Positions 1,573 to 26,146 of a stretch of 64,000 nucleotides of DNA are shown piece by piece. How positions within the stretch are numbered: the first letter of the stretch is position 1; each line of letters opens with the position of its first letter. This stretch comes from Hyphomicrobium sp. CS1BSMeth3. GTDB taxonomy: Bacteria > Pseudomonadota > Alphaproteobacteria > Rhizobiales > Hyphomicrobiaceae. Made by a program: the position numbers and the translations under genes. The stretch is taken from assembly GCF_900117415.1 (NCBI RefSeq), contig NZ_FPEI01000006.1, positions 2,046,001-2,110,000 of the forward strand, read 5' to 3'. The notes beneath the pieces are model-generated. The model was not told the origin of the DNA, ran no database searches, and worked only from the letters and a program-made list of their open reading frames with translations.

Positions 1573-2454
1573 ATGGGCGATCAACGCATACGGGGCTGGA
1601 TCAACGCCTGGCTGCTCCTGCTGCCGGCCATGGCGCTCCTGGCTCTGTTCACGCACTGGCCAGCCGTCGCGACCATCATCGACAGCTTCTTTTCCACGCC
1701 TCGCGCGCGACGCCCTTCGGTCTTCGTCGGTCCCGACAACTACCAGCAGATGCTGGCCGATCCGATCTTCTGGCAGGCGCTGACGAACAATTTCTGGTTT
1801 GCCATCGGCACGATCCCTGCGTCGATCGCGCTCGCGCTGCTCATGGCTGTCTGGGTGAACGATCGCTTCCCTGGCCGCACGTTCGTGCGCATGGCGTTCT
1901 TCACCCCGACCGTGCTGCCCATGATCGCGGTCGCGAATATCTGGCTCTTCTTCTACACGCCCGAGCTCGGCCTGCTCGAGCAGATCAGGAGCGCGCTCGG
2001 CGGACGCGCGCACAACTGGCTCGGCTCGCGGGACACCGCTCTCGCCGCGGTCACGATCGTTGCCGTGTGGAAGGAGGCCGGGTTCTTCATGATCTTCTAT
2101 CTGGCGGCCCTGCAGGCCATTCCGCCCAATCTGGCGGAGGCGGCATCGCTGGAAGGAGCTTCGCGCTGGTACTTCTTCCGCCGCGTGCAGTTTCCGCTTC
2201 TGATGCCGACCACACTGTTCGTGCTCGTCAACGCCGTGATCAACGCCTTCCGCATGGTCGATCACATCTTCGTCCTCACGCGCGGCGGCCCCGACAACGC
2301 AACGACGCTGCTGCTGTTTCACATCTACACGGTCGGCTTCGGCTTTTGGGATACCGGCTACGCGGCCGCCCTGACCGTCGTGCTCCTGCTCGCGCTTGCC
2401 GCACTCGCGCTCATACAGTACGGCGTGCTCGAGCGCCGCATCCACTATCGCTGA
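1573..2454 (+). CDS. ugpA: ABC transporter permease, UgpA/MalF type
   Basis: A 293-residue inner-membrane permease with about six hydrophobic helices. The EAA loop that contacts the ATPase is visible around residues 185-210 (LAEAASLEGASRWYFFRRVQFPLL). The binding-protein-dependent transport domain spans most of the protein. ATG 1573 gives a short polar N-terminus (MGDQRIRGWINAW) followed directly by the first helix, as in UgpA. It partners with the permease gene 13 bp downstream and with the upstream binding protein and ATPase. No individual residue tells the substrate. Confidence 0.75.
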   Translation: MGDQRIRGWINAWLLLLPAMALLALFTHWPAVATIIDSFFSTPRARRPSVFVGPDNYQQMLADPIFWQALTNNFWFAIGTIPASIALALLMAVWVNDRFPGRTFVRMAFFTPTVLPMIAVANIWLFFYTPELGLLEQIRSALGGRAHNWLGSRDTALAAVTIVAVWKEAGFFMIFYLAALQAIPPNLAEAASLEGASRWYFFRRVQFPLLMPTTLFVLVNAVINAFRMVDHIFVLTRGGPDNATTLLLFHIYTVGFGFWDTGYAAALTVVLLLALAALALIQYGVLERRIHYR

Positions 2455-2467
2455 TTGGGCTGGGCCG

Positions 2468-3328
2468 ATGACAACGACACGAGCCAGCAGATTCGAGCAG
2501 CGGGAGGACCAGTATCAGCCGCGCGGCCGCGGCCTCATGCTCGAAACCATCGCTGCATGGTCGCTCGCGCTCATCTGGATCGCGCCGCTGCTCTATGCCG
2601 TCTGGGCGGCTTTTCACCCGCCTGAGTTCTCGACGCGCTTTGCGCCGCTCGCGCCGCTGACACTCGACAATTTCGTGCGCGCCTGGGATGCGGCGCCGTT
2701 CGCCCGCTACTTCCTGAATACCATTCTGCTGGTCACGCTCGTGCTCGCCAGCCAGCTCGTGCTGTGCACACTCGCCGCCTTCGCCTTCGCGCGCTACGAG
2801 TTTCCCGGGCGCGGCATCGTCTTTGCGCTCGTCCTCGCCCAGCTCATGATCATGCCGGATGTGCTTCTGGTCGAGAACTATCGCACCATGAGCAATCTCG
2901 GCCTCGTCGATTCCATTCCGGCGATCGCGCTGCCCTACGTCGCCTCGGCCTTCGGCATCTTCCTGCTCCGACAGACCTTCAAGCAGGTTCCGCGCGAGCT
3001 CGATGACGCGGCACGCGTCGAAGGGGCTAGTGGTCTGCAGACGCTGCTCAAGGTCTATGTGCCGCTCGGTAAGCCGGTCTATCTGGCCTACGGGCTCGTC
3101 TCGGTCAGCTATCACTGGAACAACTTCCTGTGGCCGCTGATCATTACGAGCTCAGTCGAGGCGCGGCCGCTTACGGTCGGCCTCCAGGTATTTTCCTCGA
3201 CCGATCAGGGCATCGACTGGGCGGTGATTTGTGCGGCGACGCTCATGACGTCCGCGCCGCTCATGCTCGGATTTCTGCTTTTCCAGCGCCAGTTCGTGCA
3301 GAGCTTCATGCGCGCCGGCGTCAAATAA
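2468..3328 (+). CDS. ugpE: ABC transporter permease, UgpE/MalG type
   Basis: A 286-residue second permease of the same importer. The reading frame is open from 2396, but ATG 2468 lies after the stop of the preceding permease and gives a normal MalG-type N-terminus (polar 25 residues, then a helix with LIWIAPLLYAVWAAF). The EAA motif is seen as ELDDAARVEGASGLQTLLKVYVPL. Six membrane segments are predicted by hydrophobicity. It is the last gene of the ugp-like unit and is followed by a hairpin and a convergent ppk2 gene. Confidence 0.75.
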   Translation: MTTTRASRFEQREDQYQPRGRGLMLETIAAWSLALIWIAPLLYAVWAAFHPPEFSTRFAPLAPLTLDNFVRAWDAAPFARYFLNTILLVTLVLASQLVLCTLAAFAFARYEFPGRGIVFALVLAQLMIMPDVLLVENYRTMSNLGLVDSIPAIALPYVASAFGIFLLRQTFKQVPRELDDAARVEGASGLQTLLKVYVPLGKPVYLAYGLVSVSYHWNNFLWPLIITSSVEARPLTVGLQVFSSTDQGIDWAVICAATLMTSAPLMLGFLLFQRQFVQSFMRAGVK

Positions 3329-3331
3329 GAA

Positions 3332-3359
3332 GAGTGCGCGCCCTTGAGAGCACGCGCTC
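3332..3359. terminator. Imperfect hairpin between convergent ugpE-like and ppk2 genes
   Basis: Arms GAGTGCGCGC (3332-3341) and GCACGCGCTC (3350-3359) pair over 10 positions with one mismatch and one G-T pair around an 8-nt loop. It lies 4 bp after the ugpE-like stop and 37 bp beyond the ppk2 stop, as expected for a shared terminator. There is no clear U-run on either side, so this is tentative. Confidence 0.4.
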
Positions 3360-3396
3360 ATTGCGCTTGTTCTTCAGCAATGCCGCTCAGGTATCG

Positions 3397-4323
3397 TCAG
3401 TACCGTTCCGGGACGTGCAGCTCCTTCGGAATGACCTTAGGCGCGAAGTCCGGGCGATGAATGCGCTCCGGTAGTGACACAGGCGGTCGACGCACTTCCT
3501 CGTACGGCACCTGCGACAGCAAATGCGATATGCAGTTGAGACGGGCCCGCTTCTTGTCGACGGCCTCGACGATCCACCACGGCGCCTCGTTGATGTGGGT
3601 GCGCTCCAGCATTTCCTCTTTGGCCTTGGTGTAATCCTCCCACCGCTGCCGCGACTCGAGATCCATCGGCGAGAGCTTCCACTGCTTGATTGGATCCACG
3701 TTGCGCACGTGGAAGCGCAGATGCTGCTCCTCGTCGGTGATCGAGAACCAGTATTTGATCAGGATCGTGCCCGAACGCACCAGCATCCGTTCGAACTCGG
3801 GAACGGAGCGGAAGAACTCCTCGACATCATCCTCCGAGCAGAAACCCATGACGCGCTCGACGCCCGCGCGATTGTACCAAGAGCGGTCGAACAGCACGAT
3901 CTCGCCGCCCGCCGGAAGATGCGAGACGTAACGCTGGAAGTACCATTGCGTCCGCTCGCGCTCGCTTGGCGCCGGCAGCGCGGCGACGCGGCAGACGCGC
4001 GGATTGAGCCGCTGGGTGATGCGCTTGATGGCACCGCCCTTGCCGGCAGCGTCACGCCCCTCGAACAGAACTACGACCTTGAGCTTCTGGTGCGCGATCC
4101 AGTCCTGGAGCTTCACCAGCTCGCTCTGCAAGCGGAACAGCTCGCGAAAGTAGATCTTGCGGTCGATCTGCCCATCGACATCGGTCTCGACAGTATCGGA
4201 CAGCAGCTTGTCCAGCCGATCGTCGTCGAGCTCCATCTCCAGCTCCTCGTCGAAGCTATCGATCGCCTCGGCTTCGATCCTCTGCCTGAACGAGGCTTCT
4301 CCTGAACGATCGCTGCTCATCAT
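3397..4323 (-). CDS. ppk2: Polyphosphate kinase 2 (class I-like)
   Basis: A 308-residue cytosolic PPK2, which uses polyphosphate to phosphorylate nucleoside diphosphates (or the reverse). The Walker A sequence GRDAAGKGG lies at residues 89-97 and the Walker B/lid region FDRSWYNRAGVERVMGF near 150. Single-domain length and motif spelling fit class I enzymes, which act mainly on NDPs; class assignment from motifs alone is not decisive. The first ~50 residues are very acidic (EELEMELDDD), as in other family members. Start may be ATG 4323 or the next codon, 4320. It is divergent from pstB, with a possible Pho box in the shared promoter region, which ties it to phosphate homeostasis. Confidence 0.92.
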   Translation of the reverse strand: MMSSDRSGEASFRQRIEAEAIDSFDEELEMELDDDRLDKLLSDTVETDVDGQIDRKIYFRELFRLQSELVKLQDWIAHQKLKVVVLFEGRDAAGKGGAIKRITQRLNPRVCRVAALPAPSERERTQWYFQRYVSHLPAGGEIVLFDRSWYNRAGVERVMGFCSEDDVEEFFRSVPEFERMLVRSGTILIKYWFSITDEEQHLRFHVRNVDPIKQWKLSPMDLESRQRWEDYTKAKEEMLERTHINEAPWWIVEAVDKKRARLNCISHLLSQVPYEEVRRPPVSLPERIHRPDFAPKVIPKELHVPERY

Positions 4324-4494
4324 TCCTCCGATCTAGGCTGCTTGACCACGCTCGCGCTCAACATGTCCGAAGGTTTGCTACAGTTTCATGACGAGAAGAC
4401 GTGTGCGCGAAATTCAAGATCACCGTGGACGTCGACACAACGGAACATGCGCCTCTGAGACCAGCTCGCAACGCTCCGCTGCTCATCTCCTTCC

Positions 4495-4512
4495 TTGTCA
4501 CGTCCTCGTCAC
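4495..4512 (+). promoter_or_regulatory. Candidate Pho box (PhoB site) in the ppk2-pstB divergent region
   Basis: Two direct repeats, TTGTCAC (4495-4501) and TCGTCAC (4506-4512), are spaced 11 bp start to start, the spacing of the classical Pho box (two CTGTCAT-like halves with a 4-bp spacer). They match the consensus half-sites at 6/7 and 5/7 positions if the last base may be T or C. The site is 83 bp before the pstB start. The rest of the 271-bp divergent region shows no gene. Confidence 0.4.
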
Positions 4513-4594
4513 AGTTTGCGAACCGTCAAGGCGTGTGACAGAAACAACCGCTGTTCTGGCGGCATCCAACCTCTCGCGCTCGGGAGATGCCGCT

Positions 4595-5428
4595 ATGCTG
4601 GCTCAGAACACTTCGGACTTCGTTGACTTCAAGATCCACCTTGGCAAGCGACCGCATCACGACCTCAACAACGGCGTCAAGATCGACATCAAAAGCCTGA
4701 ACTTCTGGTACGATACCAAGCAGGCCCTCTTCGACATCAACCTGAAGTTCCATTGTCGCGAAGTGACGGCGCTCATCGGTCCATCGGGCTGCGGCAAGAC
4801 GACCCTTCTGCGCTGTCTCAACCGCAGCCACGACCTCACTGCCGGCGCCCGCTTGAACGGGTCCATTCTCCTCGACGGCGTCGACATCAACGACCCGCGC
4901 CTGGATCCGCCCCTCATCCGGCGCCGCTTCGGCTGGGTTGCACAGAAGCCCAATCCGTTCCCGTTCTCGGTCTATTTCAACGTCGCCTATGGGCCGCGGC
5001 TGCACGGGCTCGTGTCGACGCGCGCCGAGACCGATGCGCTCGTCGAGGATTGCCTGCGGCGCGGCGGTCTGTGGGACGAGGTCAAGGACCGCCTCCGGGA
5101 GGCCGGCACTGATCTCTCCGGCGGCCAGCAGCAGCGGCTTTGCGTGGCGCGCGCGCTCGCCTACGATCCGGAGGTCCTGCTCATGGACGAGCCGGCATCG
5201 GCGCTCGATCCTATCGCCACTGCAAAGCTCGAGCAGCTCATCCATGAGCTGCGCGAGCGCTATACGATCGTCATCATCACGCACAACATGCAGCAGGCAG
5301 CGCGCGTCGCGCAGCGGGTCGCGGTCTTCCATCTTGGACGCCTCGTCGAGCAAGGCGACACGTCCGAGGTCTTCGTCAATCCGCAGCATGAGATCACGCA
5401 GGCCTACATCACCGGAAGATTCGGTTGA
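4595..5428 (+). CDS. pstB: Phosphate import ATP-binding protein PstB (without pstSCA nearby)
   Basis: A 277-residue ABC ATPase with all PstB hallmarks: Walker [10 protein letters not shown] at residues 62-70 followed by LLRCLNR, the PstB-specific Q-loop QKPNPFP, signature [16 protein letters not shown], Walker [13 protein letters not shown] and switch His in [14 protein letters not shown] 4595 was chosen over the in-frame ATG at 4388 because the extension has no PstB-like sequence. The normal partners pstS, pstC, pstA and phoU are absent. Instead a DUF47/PhoU-like protein and a short PPDK follow on the same strand, so this ATPase either serves permeases encoded elsewhere or acts in a regulatory complex. 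That second idea is inference. Confidence 0.88.
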
Positions 5429-9165: not shown

Positions 9166-9980
9166 TCAGTCGATCAGTTGGCCACTGCCATCGAAAAACG
9201 GGAAAGGTCCTGGCCAGTCGCCCAGAACTGCGGCGTGCGAGATGAGCTGGTTATCCCGCCAGCGGTGCAGCATGTACCCCGGCGGCTCGAGCCGAAAGGC
9301 GCTCGGCCCGTTCTCAGTCAGGTCGAGCGCGACCTGATGCGCGGGACTTGGGCAGATCATGGCCGTGCGCGCGCCGACCTGCGCGAAGGCCGCACGGTGC
9401 ACATGACCGCAGAGAATGGCCTGGATCTGCGGATGACGCGCAACGATGGTGGCGAAGGCCTCCCGACCAATGAGGCCGATGCGATCCATGTGCGCAATGC
9501 CGGTAAGGAACGGCGGGTGGTGCATCAGGATCAGAGTCGGCACGTCCGGCGTCGCGCTCAGCGTCGCTTCGAGCCACGCAAGACGATCGGCGCACAGCTC
9601 GCCGCCACCTTGGCCAGGAACGACCGTATCGAGACCGACAATCCTCAACGGCCCGCGTTGCACGGCAAAGTGCAGGAAGCTGCCAGCGGGAAAATAGTCA
9701 CGATCCGGAAACGCGCGCCGCATGGCATCGCGCTCGTCGTGATTACCGGGAACGGCAATGATCTCCGTCCCCAGGGGCGCCAGAATCTCGCGCAGATGGG
9801 CGTACTCCGCATCATGACCGAGATCGACAAGATCGCCCGTGTGCACGATCAGATCCGGCTTTGGATCGAGCGCCATGAGCTCCGACACACAGGCTCTCAG
9901 CATCGCCGCTGTGTCTATCTGCCGGTAGGCCAACCGACCCGGCAGCTTGATGTGCGTATCCGTGATCTGGGCAATCAGCA

Positions 9981-9984
<4 letters not shown>
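9166..9984 (-). CDS. Metallophosphoesterase, GpdQ / class III cyclic-nucleotide phosphodiesterase family
   Basis: A 272-residue calcineurin-like phosphoesterase. Metal ligands are seen in order: DTH at residues 9-11, GD at 50-51, GNHD at 80-83, MHHPP near 155 and GHVH near 195. The C-terminal part, with GYMLHRW, matches GpdQ (glycerophosphodiesterase) and CpdA/Icc more than other branches. It is the last gene of an ABC importer operon; its ATG overlaps the stop of the ATPase gene by 4 bp. That coupling suggests it hydrolyses the phosphodiester that the importer brings in. A cAMP phosphodiesterase role remains possible because the families share these motifs. Confidence 0.8.
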
Positions 9985-11032
<1,048 letters not shown>

Positions 11033-11033
<1 letters not shown>

Positions 11034-11845
11034 CACTCTTCGTCCTTGATGATGCTGGATTTGACCGGCCGCGGACGGGCTGCACGCTGCATGGCCAGAA
11101 GCAGCGGCACAATCATGATGAAGAAGACCAGCGTATAGGCACTGCCGATCTCGAAGCGCAGTGAGGCATAGGCATCGGCAAGCCCGACCGGGAGAGTCTT
11201 GTTGAGCGGCGTATGGAGCAGCCAGGTCATGTTGAACTCGCCGATCGACAGCGTCAGCACCATCAGCGATCCGGCAACGATGCCGCTGCGGCAGTTGGGA
11301 AGCACGATATCGAAAAAGCGCCGCCGAAAACTCGCACCGAGCGAGGCAGCGCCCTCCTCCAGTGTCTTGAGGTCGATCGCGAGCATCACGGCAAGCACCG
11401 AACGCACCATGAAAGGGAGCGTGAACAGCACGTGGCCGATCAGGATGAACACCCACGATGTGCGCAAGCCGCCAACGCTCCCGTACGTGACGATCAGCGC
11501 CAGTGCCGTGGCGAGGCCCGGGATCGCGACGGGCATCACCAGAAGCTCTTCGAAAAACCGCGTGAGCCTCGATTGCCGCCTGGCGAGAACGTAGGCCGCA
11601 GGAACGCCGAGCAGCAGCGTCACCACGAGACAGGCGAGCGCGAGGCCAACCGACAGCAGCATGGTATCGCGATAGCCATTCCAAACCTCGAGCACCCAGC
11701 GCAGCGTCAGGCCGCTGGAGATGCCCACCTGATAGTTGACCGTGAGGCCTGCCAGGATCGACAGCAGCACCGGCACGATGAGAAAGGCGCATACGACGAG
11801 GGCAAAGGCGAGTTGCACAAAGAAGAGACTGCCGCGCCGGATCAT
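11033..11845 (-). CDS. ABC transporter permease (PotC/PhnV-like)
   Basis: A 270-residue inner-membrane permease with six hydrophobic segments and an EAA loop (LKTLEEGAASLGASFRRRFFDIVLP). It belongs to the branch of separate PotB/PotC-like permeases used for iron, polyamines, phosphonates and hexose phosphates. It lies 13 bp after the other permease and overlaps the ATPase start. The family alone does not give the substrate; the phosphodiesterase at the end of the operon points to an organophosphate. Confidence 0.75.
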
Positions 11846-18753: not shown

Positions 18754-19104
18754 ATGGGGATGGATATGCGTTTGGAACAGACGTCACTGCCGGACAATAT
18801 TTTGCTGGTGAAGCTTATAGGGCCGCTCGACATCGCAGGTGCCGGCGAAGTCGACATGCCATTCAGTGTGCTCTCCGGCAAGCACGACAAGGTCATTGTC
18901 GATCTCGCGGGCGTAACCTTCCTCGCGTCGATCGGCATACGCGTCCTCGTGAAGGCGGCGCGAGCCGTCAACGGCAGAAAAGGCCGGTTCGTTGTTTTCG
19001 GTCCGACAGAGGATGCGCGCAAGGTTTTGCGCTCGACTGGCATCGACACCATGATTCCGGTCGTAGCGGATCAGACAGCCGCAATCAGCGAGTGCGCTAA
19101 ATGA
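18754..19104 (+). CDS. STAS-domain anti-sigma factor antagonist (RsbV/SpoIIAA-like)
   Basis: A 116-residue single STAS domain. The phosphorylatable Ser59 is in VTFLASIGIRVLV, the usual position for antagonists that are switched off by phosphorylation and back on by a PP2C phosphatase. The gene overlaps the next one by 4 bp (ATGA), and the next gene encodes the expected RsbW-like kinase. A CHASE2-PP2C phosphatase is encoded convergently just downstream, so the three make a complete partner-switching set. The final target (sigma factor or other) is not in view. Confidence 0.87.
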   Translation: MGMDMRLEQTSLPDNILLVKLIGPLDIAGAGEVDMPFSVLSGKHDKVIVDLAGVTFLASIGIRVLVKAARAVNGRKGRFVVFGPTEDARKVLRSTGIDTMIPVVADQTAAISECAK

Positions 19105-19511
19105 GCTTGGCGGGTTGGATCCGCCTGTCTCCTACAGCCGCCGAAGTTTCGCGGTTCAATGATTGGTTCGATCGCAGATGTGCCGCTAGCGACATCGAGA
19201 AGTCGCTGGCGGCTGATATGAAGCTCTGCATCAATGAAGTTCTGGCGAACTTCATCAGCTACGGCTTCAAGAACACAGCCAATCCATCGATTGTCGTCAA
19301 TGTATGGCTGCGCCCGGGCCGCGCAGTCGCGCGAATATTCGACAACGGCACCTACTTCGATTTCAGAAAGTGGGAGCGACCTGCCGACCGTGACCTGCCG
19401 ACGGCCGAGCCAGGCGGGTACGGCATTGCGCTTATAAAGGAGCGCGCCAGCCGGATTTGCTATGGCCGGTTCTGCGGCGTCAACCGGCTCAAAATCATCT
19501 GCGAAGCCTGA
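19101..19511 (+). CDS. RsbW-like anti-sigma factor / serine kinase (HATPase_c_2)
   Basis: A 136-residue GHKL-fold ATPase. The N box is CINEVLANFISYGF (with the Glu and Asn needed for Mg-ATP), the G1 region is IFDNGTYFDF, and the G2 region is GGYGIALIKERASRI. It should phosphorylate the STAS protein encoded in front of it, and bind an effector when the STAS protein is phosphorylated. The 4-bp overlap with the STAS gene implies coupled synthesis. No sigma factor gene is adjacent, so the effector may be encoded elsewhere or may not be a sigma factor. Confidence 0.85.
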   Translation: MSLAGWIRLSPTAAEVSRFNDWFDRRCAASDIEKSLAADMKLCINEVLANFISYGFKNTANPSIVVNVWLRPGRAVARIFDNGTYFDFRKWERPADRDLPTAEPGGYGIALIKERASRICYGRFCGVNRLKIICEA

Positions 19512-19554
19512 AGCAGCGGGCTCAAAATTCCCCTCGCCCCGATGACCCGACGCT

Positions 19555-21651
19555 TCAGCCCCTGAAGCACAATGCGACGCAGGTGATATCGTCGGACTGT
19601 TCGGTTCCAGCCGAGAAGCGCGCAACCTCACCCGTGAGCGCTTCGACAATCCCCGCGGCGCTCGTGTGCGGCCGGCGTGCCAAGACATCCAAGATGCGGT
19701 CGCTACCGAAGATGCGACCATCCATATCGAAGGCCTCGGTGATCCCGTCCGACAGCAGCAGGATAGCGTCACCGGCCGCGAGATCGCGCGACGCCGTCGG
19801 ATATTCCGCCACGTCGATGAGACCGATGGCCGGTCCCATGTATCCCAGGCGCTCGAGCGAACCAGAAGCGGTGAGCAGCACGGCGTCGTCGTGACCGCCG
19901 CTCGAGAATGTCAGAACGCCGGTCGCGAGATCGAGCACGACGTAGAAGATCGTAACGAACATGCCCTCGGGATTGTCCCGCGCCAGGATAGCGTTCACCT
20001 TGGACAGCACCACGCCGGGCTCTTCATGCTCGAAGGCGACCGTGCGCAGGACCGTTCGCGAGACGCTCATGAACAGAGCGGCGGGCACGCCTTTGCCCGA
20101 GACATCTCCGACCGCAACCCCGACCTTCGTGTCACCGATCAGGAAGTAGTCGTAGAAGTCTCCCCCGACAGCCCGAGCAGGCTTCATGATCGCGGAGATA
20201 TCGAACTTGCTGGCGGACGGCCCAGCGAGATCCTCTTTCGGCAGAAAAGTGCGCTGGATCTGAGCTGCGGCTTCCATCTCGCGCGCAATGCGCTGCAGTT
20301 CTTTCCGCCCGCGATTGCGCTCGCGTTCGGCCTCGTAATAGAGGTATCCGCTGCCGATGACATAGACGACAGAGCTCGTCATGATCGGATACACAGCATC
20401 AAGCAGCACGCCCTGCGAGAACAGCCACAAGCTCCCGAGCGACAATAAGAGAACGCTGGCAAAGCCGACGGCCGCCGAGACGCGGGCACCCCAAAGGTAG
20501 GCCAATAGGGCCAGGCCCAGCGACGAGACGACCGCGAGAACGATCTCTATTCCCACTGCGTAGTCAGGCCGGACAAGCAGGCGCCCGGAGAGCAGTTGCT
20601 CGAGTGCCTGCGCATTGATCTCGACGCCGGCAATCACCGGGTCCAGGGGCGTGGCGCGGAGATCGAGCAATCCCGGCGCGCTCGTGCCGACCACGGCGAT
20701 CCGCCCATCGAGACTGCCTTTCGGCACTCTGCCCGCAAGCACATCGCCGGCCGAAATCGAGCGTGCGGGATCATGCCGAGAGAACCAGAGCCACACCTGG
20801 CCGTCCCGATCCGTCGGAACGATGGTCTTGCCGATAGCGACCGTGGTGATCCCGCGATCTCCCACGAACCCGCCGTCGCCGGCTGAGCGGACGCCCAATG
20901 TTTTTGTGCCATTGAAGACGCGAAACGCGTCCGCGACGAGAGAGGGATAGAGTTGCCCGGATATGCCGACGACGAGCGGAATGCGTCGCAGGATCTGGTC
21001 GTGATCCGGAAACCAGTTCAAGACGCCAATGCCCGCCGCGCCCTTCTCGAGCACGGCGAGATTGCCGGAGACACCGGCAAAGCTCGGCACCAAGCCGACG
21101 ACGTTCTCGCCAACGGTTGCGAAGGATGCCTTAGGCCCAGGCGGAGCTTCGCCTACGTGCGATGTGCCGATGACGCCAAGCACCGTCGGATGTGCGGCAA
21201 TGGCTTTGCTGAAGATATCGTCGGGTGCTTCCTTCTCAGCCAGCGCGCTCAGAAAGGGCGCCAGTTCGGGTGCTTCCCGCAATGCTTTCGGAATGTGATC
21301 GAGAGGTCCAGGCGTTGCGCCCGGAAAAACGATATCGAACACCACAACGCGCACGCCTGCAGATGCGAGGCGCTCCGAGAGCTGAGCGAGAAGTTCCCGG
21401 CGCCAAGGCCAAGGCCCGAACTCCTTCATCGATCGCTCGTCGATATCGATGACGCGAACCGGATAGCTCGGGTCGATCGCACGCGGCAGGGTTTGTTGAA
21501 GAATGTCGAAGCCGAGGAGCCGCAGGCGCGTCATGAAGCCCGGATCGGCTTGCCGCACTGCAGCACACGCCGCTATGGCCGCTACGATGATCAACCAGTA
21601 AGTGGCGCTCACGCTCAGTCGGCGCGCGCCGGGTCGTCCTCCATGTAGCAT
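19555..21651 (-). CDS. CHASE2 sensor with PP2C (SpoIIE-like) serine phosphatase
   Basis: A 698-residue membrane protein. A first helix near residues 13-32 is followed by a periplasmic CHASE2 domain (about 36-360, with VRVIDIDERSMKEFGPWPWRRELLAQL and a VVGTSAPGLLDLRATPL block), three more helices to ~450, a linker with EMEAAAQIQRTFLPK, and a PP2C domain from ~480. Metal-binding Asp residues appear in VGGDFYDY, AVGDVSGKG, LLLSDGITEA and SDDITCVAL. It probably dephosphorylates the STAS protein in response to an envelope signal. It converges on the STAS/RsbW pair with 43 bp between stops, and the FecR-domain gene is divergent 85 bp away. Confidence 0.88.
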   Translation of the reverse strand: MLHGGRPGARRLSVSATYWLIIVAAIAACAAVRQADPGFMTRLRLLGFDILQQTLPRAIDPSYPVRVIDIDERSMKEFGPWPWRRELLAQLSERLASAGVRVVVFDIVFPGATPGPLDHIPKALREAPELAPFLSALAEKEAPDDIFSKAIAAHPTVLGVIGTSHVGEAPPGPKASFATVGENVVGLVPSFAGVSGNLAVLEKGAAGIGVLNWFPDHDQILRRIPLVVGISGQLYPSLVADAFRVFNGTKTLGVRSAGDGGFVGDRGITTVAIGKTIVPTDRDGQVWLWFSRHDPARSISAGDVLAGRVPKGSLDGRIAVVGTSAPGLLDLRATPLDPVIAGVEINAQALEQLLSGRLLVRPDYAVGIEIVLAVVSSLGLALLAYLWGARVSAAVGFASVLLLSLGSLWLFSQGVLLDAVYPIMTSSVVYVIGSGYLYYEAERERNRGRKELQRIAREMEAAAQIQRTFLPKEDLAGPSASKFDISAIMKPARAVGGDFYDYFLIGDTKVGVAVGDVSGKGVPAALFMSVSRTVLRTVAFEHEEPGVVLSKVNAILARDNPEGMFVTIFYVVLDLATGVLTFSSGGHDDAVLLTASGSLERLGYMGPAIGLIDVAEYPTASRDLAAGDAILLLSDGITEAFDMDGRIFGSDRILDVLARRPHTSAAGIVEALTGEVARFSAGTEQSDDITCVALCFRG

Positions 21652-21736
21652 GCGTTCAGGACACCCGTAGAAAAGCCCCAGCCTGCATGGTACATCTTCC
21701 GCTTCTGTTCGGGAACTCGGCTTCGGATCATCCTTT

Positions 21737-22540
21737 ATGGACTGTATTGGTAGGCCCGGCGCGTGCGGTCATGCGCGGCGCATCATACTCACGGCTGTAC
21801 TCTCGGGAATATTTGGGTCGGCGGCATTGGCGCAGACGCCTGCGCAAGAGGTTGGCACCGCGATCGTCATCAAGCGGCAGGTCCTGGCAACGCTCGGCGA
21901 TGACAAGCGCGACCTGCGCGAAGGGGGCCGAGTTCATCGGAACGAGCTTCTGGAGACGGGCGACCAGGCCCAGGCCGAGCTCAGGCTGGACGACCAGACG
22001 AAGCTTGCCCTCGGGCCGAATGCCGGCTTGAAGCTCGACGAGTTCGTCATTGGCAAATCGGGTGGCGTGACGACGATCGGCGTCAATTTCGTCAAGGGCA
22101 CGTTCCGGTTCATCACCGGCTCCCAGAAGAAGGATGCCTACAAAATCCAGACCCCTTCCGCGACCATCGGCGTGCGGGGGACGGTCTTCGACGTATATGT
22201 GGACGGGAGCGGGGATACGCTCGTCCTCCTGCATCATGGTGCGGTCGATATCTGCACCAGGAACAGCACGTGCCGGCGGCACAATTCAGTAGGGCGCATC
22301 ATCCACGCCACGATGGCGGGCGCTCTCTCCAATCCGATAAAGTTCTCGCAAGGCTTGATCCCCGGTGTTCTAGGGGTCGGCGCTGCATTCCCCTTCGTTG
22401 GAAAAGCACTGCGCATCGACCCCGTGAGAAGGCTGAGAACCTCAGCCATCGTCGAGCGCCCCATCAGCAAAACCGGCAAGGCCGTGACCAAAGGCACACG
22501 CGATATCGGTCGCACGTTCCGCAAGGTCATACCCTTCTGA
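21737..22540 (+). CDS. Exported FecR-domain protein
   Basis: A 267-residue protein with an N-terminal signal or anchor segment (residues ~15-33, ending AALAQ) and a FecR domain: GDQAQAELRLDDQTKLALGPNAGLKLDEFVI, then TPSATIGVRGTVFDVYVDGSGDTLVLLHHGAVDIC. Such proteins without a sigma/anti-sigma pair often neighbour CHASE2 receptors, and here the CHASE2-PP2C gene is divergent. A likely role is a periplasmic ligand or partner for CHASE2; this is inferred from repeated co-occurrence known to me, not from a motif. Two Cys (DICTRNSTC) could form a disulfide. Confidence 0.75.
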   Translation: MDCIGRPGACGHARRIILTAVLSGIFGSAALAQTPAQEVGTAIVIKRQVLATLGDDKRDLREGGRVHRNELLETGDQAQAELRLDDQTKLALGPNAGLKLDEFVIGKSGGVTTIGVNFVKGTFRFITGSQKKDAYKIQTPSATIGVRGTVFDVYVDGSGDTLVLLHHGAVDICTRNSTCRRHNSVGRIIHATMAGALSNPIKFSQGLIPGVLGVGAAFPFVGKALRIDPVRRLRTSAIVERPISKTGKAVTKGTRDIGRTFRKVIPF

Positions 22541-22675: not shown

Positions 22676-24484
22676 GTGGTGGAGCAGGGGGCGAAAGCTT
22701 CGCAGGCGCGGCTCGTACGCCGGGCAGGCGAAGTCTGGTCACATCTGAAGTCACGCGCGCGTGTCGGCAAACCGGAGCCGGCCTCTGAGGCTGACGCCAG
22801 GAAGCCGGCGGCCTTGGTCTATGGTGTCGAGGAACGGCCGCCGACGCAGGTCATCTGGCTCAGTGCGCTGCAGCAAGTGGCCATATCGTCCATCTACATG
22901 ATCTATCCCCTGATCCTGGCGCATCAGGCCGGGCTCGGCACGCACCAGATCATCAACCTCCTGCAGCTCGGCTGCATTGCATTGGGCATAGCCGCTCTGC
23001 TGCAAGCGCTCCCGCGCGGTCCCGTCGGCAGCCGGCTCCTGGCACCCTCGTCTTTCACGGGCATCTACTTCGCCTCGTCTCTGGTCGCCGTCAAAGCCGG
23101 TGGCATGCCCCTGGTGTGGGGCATGACGATTTTCGCAGGGATCATGGAGATTGCCTTCTCGCTTGTGTGGAAGCGGCTGCGCGCACTCGTTCCACCCGAA
23201 ACGGCCGGGCTCGTCGTCTTCTTCATCGGCAGCATCATAGCTCTTGCTGCGTGTCGGATGCTCGCAGACGGGCCGGCTGGCGGCGCCACTTCGGCAGAGT
23301 GGATTATCACCGGGATCATCGTCGCATTGATGGTGACCATCAATGTTTGGAGCAGGAGTGGCGTAGCCATCTACTGCGTCGTGATAGGCATGGTCGCCGG
23401 TTATCTTGCTTCGCTCTGGTCCGGCCTGATCACGCGCGCACACCTGCAACCCCTCCTCGAGCTTCCTTTGATGTCGGTGCCGAACGTTTCCGGAATCTCC
23501 TGGGCATTCGAGTGGTCGATGGTGCTGCCATTTGCGATTACGGCACTTGCGGCAGCCATGAGCGCGACCGCAGTGTTGACGGCCGTACAAAGATTGACGG
23601 ATGCCGACTGGGTTCGCCCGGAAATGTCATCCATTGGCCGGGGTGTCCTCGGCGATGGCATCGCCACGGCATTCTCCGGTCTTCTTGGTGCCTACGGCCT
23701 TACCCTTTCCAATGCCAATGCCGGTGTGATGGCCGCGACGGGGGTCGCCAGTCGACGCATCGCCTTCGCGATTGCCGCGATACTGGCGGTGATCGCGTTG
23801 CAGCCGCGCCTTCTCGGCATTCTGACGCTCATGCCGAAGCCTGTGATGGCGGCCGCCATGCTCTTCACATCGGCCTTCATCATGATCAGCGGCATTCAGA
23901 TCATAACGACGCGGGTTCTGGACAGTCGTCGCACGCTGGTTATCGGCATGGGGATTTCCACGTTCTTCGGCGTCACAGTCTATCCATCCGCCTTTTCCGG
24001 CGCGCCACATTGGGCGCAGCCCATCGTCACCACTCCCCTGGTGCTGGCGACACTCGTTGCGCTCGCCCTGAATCTCGTATTCAGGATCGGCATCAAGAAG
24101 CGCGTGACGATGACGATCGATGCGCAAAGCCCCGCTCTGCGCGATGTCACTGCGTTCATCGAACGGTGCGCGGGCGTATGGGGCGCCAGGCGCGACGTGA
24201 CCAATCGCGTCGAGTTCGCCGTTCAACAGTCCCTCGAGGCAATAATCGCCTACTGCGACGCCAAAGGCCCGATCAAGATCGAGCTGAGCTTCGATGAATT
24301 CGTCATCGGCGCCGACATCACCTATGACGGCAAGTCGATGGAGTTTCCAGCCGAGGCGCCGGGCAAGGAGGAGTTGTTCGAAAGCGAACAGGGCTATCCG
24401 CGCCTCGCCGGCTTCTTGATAAGGCAACATACGGACCGACGCCTGCAGATCAAAGGCGGCGTGCGCCTGCTGTTCGATCACTGA
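22676..24484 (+). CDS. SLC23/NCS2 nucleobase permease fused to a degenerate RsbW-like domain
   Basis: A 602-residue protein. Residues ~1-55 are polar, ~58-465 are an NCS2/SLC23 transporter (about 12-14 helices; starts WLSALQQVAISSIYMIYPL; NAT-like signature N-A-G-V-M-A-A-T-G near 345). Residues 474-602 form a soluble tail that resembles the GHKL fold of RsbW: RVEFAVQQSLEAIIAYC aligns with the N box of the neighbouring RsbW-like protein, and DITYDGKSMEF with G1. The catalytic Glu and the Mg-binding Asn of the N box are replaced (Gln and Ala) and the G2 glycines are mostly lost, so it probably does not hydrolyse ATP. Start is GTG 22676 or GTG 22679, with GGGGAGG just before; the second has better spacing. 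Known members transport purines, pyrimidines or ascorbate; the substrate here is open. Confidence 0.75.
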   Translation: MVEQGAKASQARLVRRAGEVWSHLKSRARVGKPEPASEADARKPAALVYGVEERPPTQVIWLSALQQVAISSIYMIYPLILAHQAGLGTHQIINLLQLGCIALGIAALLQALPRGPVGSRLLAPSSFTGIYFASSLVAVKAGGMPLVWGMTIFAGIMEIAFSLVWKRLRALVPPETAGLVVFFIGSIIALAACRMLADGPAGGATSAEWIITGIIVALMVTINVWSRSGVAIYCVVIGMVAGYLASLWSGLITRAHLQPLLELPLMSVPNVSGISWAFEWSMVLPFAITALAAAMSATAVLTAVQRLTDADWVRPEMSSIGRGVLGDGIATAFSGLLGAYGLTLSNANAGVMAATGVASRRIAFAIAAILAVIALQPRLLGILTLMPKPVMAAAMLFTSAFIMISGIQIITTRVLDSRRTLVIGMGISTFFGVTVYPSAFSGAPHWAQPIVTTPLVLATLVALALNLVFRIGIKKRVTMTIDAQSPALRDVTAFIERCAGVWGARRDVTNRVEFAVQQSLEAIIAYCDAKGPIKIELSFDEFVIGADITYDGKSMEFPAEAPGKEELFESEQGYPRLAGFLIRQHTDRRLQIKGGVRLLFDH

Positions 24485-24741
24485 GGGCACATCTGCAGTT
24501 GCCGGCACCTTTGACCGGTCAGGCTTTCCGCCTTTCGCAAGATCTGTTCGGCGCGAAGCTGTGGCAGCGAATGCGCCGCGGGCGACCGCGTCGCGAGCCC
24601 ACTTTCGCCGCCATTGACACAAGCGATTGATTTTTAAGCGTTTGGCCAACGCATGATCAGCCGCCATCGGTGGTTGAATTTGCGGGCATGGTAGCTTAGG
24701 TGTCGCAGTGGATGTCCGGACAGAAAGGAGCGCCACTCGAC

Positions 24742-25632
24742 ATGGCAGGGAGACTGACGGCTGAACGTCCGAGAAGGCTGTTGCTTGCAACGGATCTCAG
24801 CGCTCGGTCCGATCGGGCACTCGATCGAGCTACGCAGCTCGCCAATCAGTGGGATGCAGAGCTGATCGTCGTCCATGCCTTGGAAGAGCCGCCGGTGAGC
24901 GACGTCGCACCGTCATGGCATCGTCGGGCGGATGTGAGGGCGACGGCGGAGGCGCGGGCACGCCAGGAAATACACGCGACGAACCCGGCTGCTCGCGTGG
25001 TGGTCGAGGCGGGGCAGCCTGGAGAAGTCATTCTCCGCACAGCCGAAGCACAGGGCTGCGATCTGATTGTCGTTGGCATTGCGCGAGACGAGCTTCTCGG
25101 CCGCGTATTTCTCGGCAGCACGGTCGATTGCCTGCTGCAGCGTGCGCACGCTCCAGTGCTCGTGGTTCGCCGGCGCGCGCGCCAGCCTTACAGCTCGATC
25201 GTCGTCGCCACTGATTTCTCCGAGCCCTCCGGTCAAGCACTCGAGACAGCCGCATCGCTGTTTGCGCCGGCGGCGATCAAGCTCTTTCATGCCTATCGCC
25301 CGCCGATGTCCGGGCTCGTAAGCGACCCGGCCGCCTATCGCCAGCAGTTCAAGGAAAGCGTCGCGAAGGAGGCGCAAGAATTTCTTGCGATGCGCAACGT
25401 CTCAGGGGTGACAGGTGTTTCGCGGGAGATCATGCTCGAGTACGGAGATCCGGATCGCGTGCTGCGCGACTATGTCGAAGAGAAGTCGATTGATCTCGTG
25501 GTGGCAGGCACTCATGGGCGAAGCGCCCTCATGGACGTCCTGATCGGCAGCGTTGCCAAGAATCTGGTGACGACATTGCCCTGCGATACACTTCTGGTCC
25601 GCTCTGTGGTTGGCTCGGCATCGGGCGCGTGA
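24742..25632 (+). CDS. Tandem universal stress protein (two UspA domains)
   Basis: A 296-residue cytosolic protein of two UspA folds. The first (residues ~10-145) starts RRLLLATDLSARSDRALD and ends with an ATP-loop-like GRVFLGSTVDCLL. The second (~150-290) starts SIVVATDFSEPSGQALE and has GTHGRSALMDVLIGSVAKNL, the G-2X-G-9X-G(S/T) pattern of ATP-binding members. ATG 24742 has AAAGGAGCG upstream, so I prefer it to the start at 24700. A PtsN-like gene follows after 22 bp, probably in one transcript. Confidence 0.88.
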   Translation: MAGRLTAERPRRLLLATDLSARSDRALDRATQLANQWDAELIVVHALEEPPVSDVAPSWHRRADVRATAEARARQEIHATNPAARVVVEAGQPGEVILRTAEAQGCDLIVVGIARDELLGRVFLGSTVDCLLQRAHAPVLVVRRRARQPYSSIVVATDFSEPSGQALETAASLFAPAAIKLFHAYRPPMSGLVSDPAAYRQQFKESVAKEAQEFLAMRNVSGVTGVSREIMLEYGDPDRVLRDYVEEKSIDLVVAGTHGRSALMDVLIGSVAKNLVTTLPCDTLLVRSVVGSASGA

Positions 25633-25654
25633 ATACTTCGTCCAGGAGGCGAAT

Positions 25655-26146
25655 ATGGCGGAAGCCATAAATCTTGCTAAAATTCTTCGAGATGACGATG
25701 TGCTGCTGGAGTCGTCGATCGATTCCAAGGCGGCGCTCCTCGCCGCTGCCGCAGAGCACCTCGGCCGGACCACCGGCATTGCGAGCGAGAGCATACTGAA
25801 GGCCCTGGCCGATCGCGAGAAGCTCGGCTCGACGGCAATCAGTCGCGGAATCGCCGTCCCACACGCCGGCATTGATGGTCTCGCTGCGCCGGCCGGGGTC
25901 GTCTTCCGGCTCGCTCAGCCGATCGAGTTCGAGGCATCGGACAACAATCCCGTCGATCTCGTGTTCGTCCTGATCTGGCCCAGCGACAAGCGCAGCGGAT
26001 TGCTTGCGACCTTGGGCGGACTGTGCCGGACGCTGCGCGCAGAAACTCTCCTGCAGGAAATCCGAAAGGCTTCCAACAAGGCCGAGATCCGGCAGGTTCT
26101 GGATAAAGCCGCGGCCGAAGCGACACCACGCCCCTCTGAAAGCTAG
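25655..26146 (+). CDS. ptsN: PTS IIA-like nitrogen-regulatory protein (PtsN family)
   Basis: A 163-residue EIIA domain of the PtsN/FruA type. The phosphorylated His70 is in STAISRGIAVPHAGIDGL, and PVDLVFVLIWPSDKRSGLL follows as in other PtsN proteins. ATG 25655 has a clear CAGGAGG site. PtsN proteins of the PTS-Ntr chain control potassium transport and stress responses by their phosphorylation state. Placement between a universal stress protein and the Mrp antiporter fits a role in cation homeostasis. This copy is not beside rpoN, so it may be a second EIIA-Ntr. Its last codons enter the palindromic repeat: the stop TAG is part of the terminal CTAG of the repeat. Confidence 0.82.
   Translation: MAEAINLAKILRDDDVLLESSIDSKAALLAAAAEHLGRTTGIASESILKALADREKLGSTAISRGIAVPHAGIDGLAAPAGVVFRLAQPIEFEASDNNPVDLVFVLIWPSDKRSGLLATLGGLCRTLRAETLLQEIRKASNKAEIRQVLDKAAAEATPRPSES

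Follow-up and report, generated by a model that had tools for sequence, protein, structure and literature searches.

We describe a gene of Hyphomicrobium sp. CS1BSMeth3 in which an NCS2/SLC23-type membrane domain is joined to a C-terminal tail resembling RsbW, the kinase of bacterial partner switches. The gene lies in a stretch of 64,000 nt (contig NZ_FPEI01000006.1, positions 2,046,001 to 2,110,000), which we call the window and whose coordinates are used below (Table 1). The family of SLC23-type membrane proteins of which the fusion is a member is an undescribed one. Sigma factors are the best-known targets of partner switches, which also act on some others. The worn-out kinase tail and the STAS proteins encoded beside several relatives suggest an undescribed link of membrane transport to signaling, and we give an even chance to the proposal that the pseudo-RsbW tail docks a STAS protein and so ties the membrane protein into a partner switch, the binding being argued from gene linkage.

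The tail comprises 129 residues (474 to 602; 24095-24481), and the open reading frame and the PF00860 match bear out the first-pass annotation of this DNA, which had proposed an SLC23/NCS2-type core with a tail of that extent. That annotation had also aligned the tail by eye with the RsbW-type kinase encoded about 3.6 kb upstream (the two genes start 3,575 bp apart), a likeness that single-sequence tools by themselves would have dismissed. The tail of the window fusion has no match in Pfam or NCBIfam, BLASTP against the window RsbW (19101-19511) returned nothing meaningful (E 4.6), and PDB sequence searches gave only insignificant matches with the tail (best E 0.1, none of them GHKL) and no GHKL match with the tail profile. 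Comparison of profiles nevertheless upheld the alignment made by eye. We used 36 tails (the window, L004 to L007 and 31 of 33 further fusions, L018 and L020 being omitted by eye as near copies) and 25 RsbW-type rows (the window RsbW and the 24 loci with the strongest matches among those listed, so that weaker RsbW matches may be missing; the weak L071 to L075 were omitted). With hhalign, the two profiles aligned colinearly over 124 columns with a probability of 96.8% (E 2.3e-10) and a score of 61.8, against 24.0 (probability 16%) for the best of 40 column-shuffled controls and a probability of 0.5% for a reversed profile. Five tails of the window sub-clade alone gave 92% (E 6.8e-7), the homology spanning 118 to 124 columns in these comparisons. 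A covalent STAS tail, as in SulP transporters, was ruled out (hhalign against the STAS profile, 0.3% with profile A2 and 0.1% with the 36 tails).

Structure prediction, which the first-pass annotation had put forward as a check, agrees with the profiles. An AlphaFold2 model of the tail region built from eight rows is confident (predicted local distance difference test 91.0, predicted template modeling score 0.85), and the structures that match it first are of the SpoIIAB/RsbW type. Foldseek returned 20 PDB matches at E <= 0.001 (best E 5.1e-6); among the top 23, 21 chains come from entries for SpoIIAB, RsbV/RsbW, SigF/anti-SigF or Rv1364c and two from the response regulator LvrC, and the TM-score by target reaches 0.83 for a chain of the RsbV/RsbW entry 6m36. 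Beyond the fusions, a hidden Markov model (HMM) of the tail reaches RsbW-type proteins at six loci or more (E 2.8e-5 to 8.7e-4). Two of these six are strong PF13581 matches; the other four (L140, L144, L145 and L146) match the profile of RsbW much more strongly than that of the tail, and STAS and PP2C genes adjoin three of them. Profile homology and predicted fold thus mark the tail as an RsbW-like GHKL domain that has degenerated.

The degeneration concerns the ATP site, which according to the aligned residues is dismantled family-wide. Mapped through the alignment, the Asn of the N box is present in none of the 36 tails and in all 25 RsbW-type rows. The Asp of the G1 box is likewise missing from all tails, which have Tyr, His, Trp or Phe instead, and is found in 22/25 RsbW-type rows, while the three glycines of the G2 box survive in 2, 4 and 1 of the 36 tails compared with 25/25 each. 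The loss of the catalytic Glu and the Mg-binding Asn claimed in the first-pass annotation is therefore correct for the window protein (Gln518 and Ala522) and, as regards Asn, for the whole set, but the Glu is kept in 22/36 tails, with Gln in 13. The tails are also conserved at positions peculiar to them, including W502, R511, D540-E541, G552 and D587.

A search for related loci turned up seven relatives, each of which carries a tail. Four come from metagenome-assembled genomes labelled Xanthobacteraceae (two), Hyphomicrobiales and Acetobacteraceae (53 to 57% identity) and three from Legionella (28% identity). Searched with a five-tail profile, at least 14/397 genomes of the order, at least 10/385 of the class and at least 4/398 of the phylum gave matches; these tallies are lower bounds, include the window genome and, for the phylum, contain one spurious match (L045, a weak tail match in a PAS/GGDEF frame, which we dropped). 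Among the matches listed, 33 of the 34 outside the window genome lie in frames that also match PF00860, and the five-tail profile revealed no free-standing relative of the tail. Extensions beyond the PF00860 match measure either 0 to 56 or 166 to 195 residues in the 53 of 68 matches measured, the sole intermediate (81 residues) being cut by a contig end. The Legionella tails are weak members (hhalign 53.4% against the 36-tail profile and 6.7% against RsbW); they were left out of the 36-tail counts and kept in the tree and linkage sets described below. The tail HMM does not find their loci, L008 to L010, at 1e-4.

In a tree of 62 permease cores, 45 tail-bearing rows fall into one clade (support 100/99) together with two tail-less rows, each encoded near a tail-bearing gene (overlapping it in L008, 1.1 kb from it in L092). 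The fusion thus probably arose once and was lost twice. These tail-less and tail-bearing neighbors (L008:8631-10001 with 9998-11689; L092:12152-13483 with 9360-11054) all lack the Glu of transmembrane segment 10 (TM10) discussed below, and a hetero-oligomer is conceivable for such pairs. Sister to the fusion clade (97/80) are three rows with a second type of tail that is also RsbW-like (hhalign 95.2%, E 2.8e-8, three rows).

The membrane domain has changed as well. In UraA, according to PMC5539350, Glu241 in TM8 and Glu290 in TM10 hydrogen-bond uracil and are essential for function. The place of Glu290 holds Glu (11) or Gln (1) in all 12 canonical tail-less rows, a set that leaves out one fragment and the two nested tail-less rows that fall inside the fusion clade, but neither residue in any of the 45 tail-bearing rows, where Ala, Ser, Gly, Pro, Thr or Val is found instead. 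The residue at the TM8 place is Asp (7) or Glu (5) in these tail-less rows; in the tail-bearing ones it is Asp (16), Arg (13), Lys (5), Gly (4), Asn (3), Ser (3) or Thr (1); an acid, always Asp, is thus kept in 16/45 and replaced by Arg or Lys in 18/45. The nested tail-less rows have also lost the TM10 Glu (Gly in N_L008_8631, Ser in N_G233_C1_136846), and the three rows with the second tail type show Thr, Asp and Ser there. At the second-type loci (L111, L117, L119 and L147), the TM8 Glu is kept in the three aligned rows. Judged by these positions, the membrane domain of the fusion family has lost the nucleobase site. The label nucleobase permease is therefore doubtful, which takes away the word nucleobase-type used for this protein in the first-pass annotation, and the family name does not predict the substrate, if there is one.

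Family models still recognize the domain in part. The window fusion matches PF00860 with E 7e-41 and 140.7 bits, well above the curated Pfam cut-off of 27, but stays below the NCBIfam cut-offs for ncs2 (155.3 of 291.8 bits) and pbuX (195.9 of 414.15 bits). Going by such HMM matches, members of the family probably carry the annotation xanthine/uracil permease, although the nucleobase-binding residues are gone. The PF00860 score, and the position of three relatives next to purL, could be taken to mean that the protein is a normal nucleobase permease whose C-terminal extension arose by chance and plays no part in regulation. We consider this very improbable given the lost binding residues and the unmet NCBIfam cut-offs, and we reject it since the tail, with its own conserved residues, is conserved through the 45 rows of one clade.

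The proposed tie to partner switching comes from gene neighborhoods. The STAS, NCS2 and SpoIIE families were located in 30 fusion genomes, and 66 of 68 PF00860 matches entered the linkage count (the second piece of one gene, G168:C5, and a contig-end fragment, G456:C29:38-397, were left out). The 45 fusions counted here are not the same set as the 45 rows of the tree and of the TM sites: the linkage set counts fragments by position, and the tree set includes one row cut in the tail by a contig end (G456:C115:244). As free-standing STAS we took open frames of less than 300 residues, with G219:C10 admitted by hand, its STAS ending six codons past the match and having an ATG just before it. By this definition, 13/45 fusions have a free-standing STAS at a distance of up to 6 kb, against a chance expectation of 0.31, and in 10 of these 13 the STAS match is no more than 350 bp away. 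The 13 amount to 12 loci, two fusions of G646 sharing one STAS, and cover eight genera if G1177 is counted as its own. RsbW and PP2C are also near in 9/12 of these loci, including the window, whereas STAS alone adjoins the fusion in three (L085, L096 and L121). None of the 16 tail-less paralogues has a free-standing STAS within 6 kb (Fisher test, 0.014), nor does STAS, RsbW or PP2C occur in any of 11 regions round tail-less NCS2 genes. Among the four second-type genes one has a STAS nearby, through a weak match (E 1.3e-4). This gene (L147) is split over two contigs of G456, with its beginning at G456:C115:2481 and its end in the fragment G456:C29:38-397, and from its end the weak STAS match lies about 140 bp and a SpoIIE match about 950 bp further on.

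Gene order is operon-like at two loci: on one strand, G177 has fusion, STAS and RsbW, and G570 has hybrid kinase, receiver-PP2C, RsbW, STAS and fusion. On the tree the linked label changes six times and is scattered (of the two G646 fusions only the nearer was marked as linked). Ser is kept at the phosphorylation position in 12/12 aligned neighboring STAS proteins, a residue we take to be the phosphorylated one by comparison with SpoIIAA/RsbV. At two loci in genomes of different families (L078:10886-12475 and L076:6949-8565), homologous Na/Pi-cotransporter-like proteins stand beside the fusion and the partner-switching genes.

Several results weigh against STAS docking. As regards the tail, single-sequence matches to PF13581 (HATPase_c_2) at E <= 10 occur in only 8/36 tails (best 9.8e-5), the other 28, including that of the window, having none, and an HMM of the 25 RsbW-type rows finds none of 63 NCS2 rows at E <= 10. 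As regards the statistics, adding the second tail type to the controls (1/20) raises the Fisher value to 0.047, and adding a hold-out set to the fusions (13/49 against 0/16) raises it to 0.027; the Poisson tail of 2.9e-17 ignores kinship and is too small, since five linked genomes belong to one genus and the independent linkage events are fewer than 13. The pairing with STAS, RsbW and PP2C noticed in the first-pass annotation does recur, but there is no STAS within 6 kb of 32/45 fusions, and none of the four hold-out fusions (G544, G517, G511 and G639) has STAS, RsbW or PP2C within about 10 kb on each side (for G511 one side stops after 5 kb, at a contig end). Fusions without partner-switching genes nearby were what that annotation had named as telling against its idea, and this objection holds in part. 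In two genomes with fusions (G396, 98% complete, and G556, 96%), neither a free-standing STAS nor an RsbW above 45 bits nor a SpoIIE match occurs at the thresholds used. Neither SpoIIE nor an RsbW above 45 bits was found in the three genomes of Legionella, which have one free-standing STAS of 98 residues each that may be MlaB. The fusion is immediately preceded by purL in L004, L005 and L006. With so many fusions outside the linkage, many members must need another or a distant partner, or the linkage marks some sub-lineages only. Around purL, two fusion genes stand in tandem in L004 (10049-13528), and the purL-linked fusions precede genes for a BolA-like protein and a Grx4-type glutaredoxin (scanned in L006 only).

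These same absences would be expected if the tail were a module for dimerization or stability, or bound a partner other than STAS, and the linkage reflected the clustering of signaling genes in some lineages. The 32 fusions and the hold-out set without STAS, the two genomes without a whole partner-switching set and the purL neighbors all favor such a reading, and UraA was crystallized as a dimer (PMC5539350). It accounts poorly for 13 linked fusions where 0.31 are expected, for the lack of linkage in the tail-less paralogues, for the scatter of linked members over the tree and for the loci where STAS is the only neighbor, and we regard it as rather unlikely. The odds that we give to all these readings rest mainly on the chance expectation of 0.31.

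If the tail does dock a STAS protein, it would do so in one phosphorylation state, most likely the dephosphorylated one, and the true RsbW kinase would be its competitor for that STAS. The pool of dephosphorylated STAS would depend on a PP2C phosphatase equipped with a sensor (CHASE2 in the window), and the membrane protein would be a partner in the switch. In the output version of this model, docking of STAS on the tail would gate the membrane domain, as the mirror image of SLC26/SulP proteins with their covalent STAS; in a close alternative, ligand binding would alter the amount of STAS held at the membrane. We lean mildly towards the output direction, because five of the six neighboring phosphatases examined carry input domains of their own (CHASE2 in the window, receiver domains in G177 and G570, HAMP in L079 and L084; none in L076) and because in two loci of genus g100 the kinase itself is joined to an ABC-permease-like domain. 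With phosphatases so equipped, the fusion is at least as likely to be an output as a sensor. STAS docking with the membrane protein as the output is nonetheless, as a combined claim, more doubtful than not.

A rival explanation, along the lines of the first-pass annotation, is that the fusion is a transceptor, its membrane domain sensing a ligand instead of transporting it and its tail holding or releasing a STAS protein or a sigma factor. It draws on the same linkage evidence, and the lost nucleobase site keeps it alive: the absence of the TM10 residue from all tail-bearing rows, like Arg or Lys at the TM8 place in 18 of them, is consistent with the loss of an ordinary transport site, and a sensor accounts for the TM10 loss no less well than a gated transporter does, a further point against gating. 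Yet SLC4 and SLC26 transporters, which have the same fold, function without a carboxylate of the TM10 type, and phosphatases with their own sensory or receiver domains make a further input unneeded. Transceptors made of a transporter plus a kinase do exist, CbrA being an example (PMC13022988). Overall a transceptor seems to us an improbable explanation, if not a negligible one. 

Returning to STAS docking, the broader picture would be a membrane branch of partner switching, to which we give somewhat less than an even chance: an SLC23-fold protein would have gained an RsbW domain, lost kinase activity and the nucleobase site, and become a membrane dock that trades a phosphorylatable STAS with the true RsbW. 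An arm of the switch would then be transport or the sensing of a ligand, and not a sigma factor.

A different joining of kinase and membrane protein appears in L079 (4040-5188) and L082 (14244-15395), where an RsbW kinase domain (HATPase_c_2, residues 251-371, E 3.3e-15) stands behind an amino-acid ABC-permease-like membrane domain; the HEQRo_perm_3TM matches of these kinases (E 1.3e-3 and 4.3e-4) are below the cut-off. Such a kinase is apparently built on an ABC importer, and in L079 the protein encoded before it is an SBP_bac_3 protein whose C-terminus resembles a permease. In G228, G319 and G433, an RsbW occupies the same place as in L079 and L082.

The window itself contains a complete partner-switching set (18754-21651), with a STAS protein bearing a phosphorylatable Ser, an intact RsbW and a PP2C phosphatase (Table 1). 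Within 5,731 bp are the only NCS2 match of the window genome, its only free-standing STAS, its only SpoIIE match above 100 bits and, among the matches listed, its only RsbW match above 45 bits. Homologues of the fusion start at the counterpart of about residue 42, so the annotated GTG start is uncertain. Directly 3' of the fusion (24700-26146) are a double universal-stress-protein gene and a PtsN-like EIIA gene, followed by genes that by eye resemble those of a multi-subunit antiporter. The CHASE2-PP2C gene adjoins that of a FecR-domain protein (19555-22540), and in L093 a CHASE2-cyclase protein (2397-4649) is encoded near the fusion.

Table 1. Features of the fusion gene and its neighborhood in window coordinates.
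Feature	Position	Strand	Details
Free-standing STAS protein, 116 aa	18754..19104	+	phospho-Ser position Ser59 conserved
RsbW-type kinase, 136 aa, HATPase_c_2	19101..19511	+	4-base overlap with the STAS gene; N-box E46/N50 intact
CHASE2 sensor and SpoIIE-type PP2C phosphatase, 698 aa	19555..21651	-	convergent; domain matches
FecR-domain protein, 267 aa, between phosphatase and fusion	21737..22540	+	relation to the switch unproven
Fusion of NCS2/SLC23-type membrane domain and putative pseudo-RsbW tail	22676..24484	+	602 aa, GTG start
Xan_ur_permease (PF00860) region, residues 62-435	22859..23980	+	Pfam match
Ser296, place of UraA Glu241 (TM8)	23561..23563	+	alignment
Ala347, place of UraA Glu290 (TM10)	23714..23716	+	alignment
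Predicted C-terminal pseudo-RsbW (GHKL/Bergerat fold) domain, residues 470-602	24083..24481	+	AlphaFold2 model, profile homology
N-box remnant, Gln518 (for catalytic Glu) to Ala522 (for Mg-binding Asn)	24227..24241	+	alignment

All in all, the observation that started this work, a transporter-like protein with a pseudo-RsbW tail beside partner-switching genes, is confirmed, while its interpretation is supported in part. Full-text literature searches, judged by titles and the starts of abstracts and covering few subscription papers, found no description of an NCS2 permease/RsbW-type fusion, which leaves its absence from print unproved, and the word permease does not occur in the accessible portion of a review of STAS proteins (PMC8256260). 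If the proposal is true, a transporter-like partner would add a direct membrane arm to partner switching. It would also provide a tractable case for the control of the SLC4/23/26 fold by cytoplasmic regulatory domains, because the STAS is here a protein by itself, whose state of phosphorylation can be chosen freely.

Four known systems invite comparison. The UraA-type membrane fold is common to SLC4, SLC23 and SLC26 (PMC5539350), and SLC26/SulP proteins, like the fusion, combine it with a cytoplasmic domain that is one member of the STAS/RsbW pair; theirs is a covalent STAS, whereas the fusion carries the RsbW-like member and leaves the STAS separate. NCS2/SLC23 symporters (UraA, XanQ and PbuX) share the PF00860 membrane domain, but the fusions form a separate clade without the TM10 Glu/Gln and with the TM8 acid, as Asp, in a minority of members. 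The RsbW/SpoIIAB kinases resemble the tail in the predicted Bergerat fold, in profile homology and, for some members, in having STAS and PP2C neighbors, although they keep the ATP motifs that the tails counted lack and are not fused to a membrane domain. Finally, CbrA and CrbS are transceptors composed of SLC5, STAC and histidine kinase parts (PMC13022988 and PMC9100948) and likewise join a transporter fold to a kinase-type signaling domain; their transporter family is a different one, and in the fusion, where we found no histidine-kinase phosphoacceptor domain, the GHKL domain is a predicted pseudo-enzyme.

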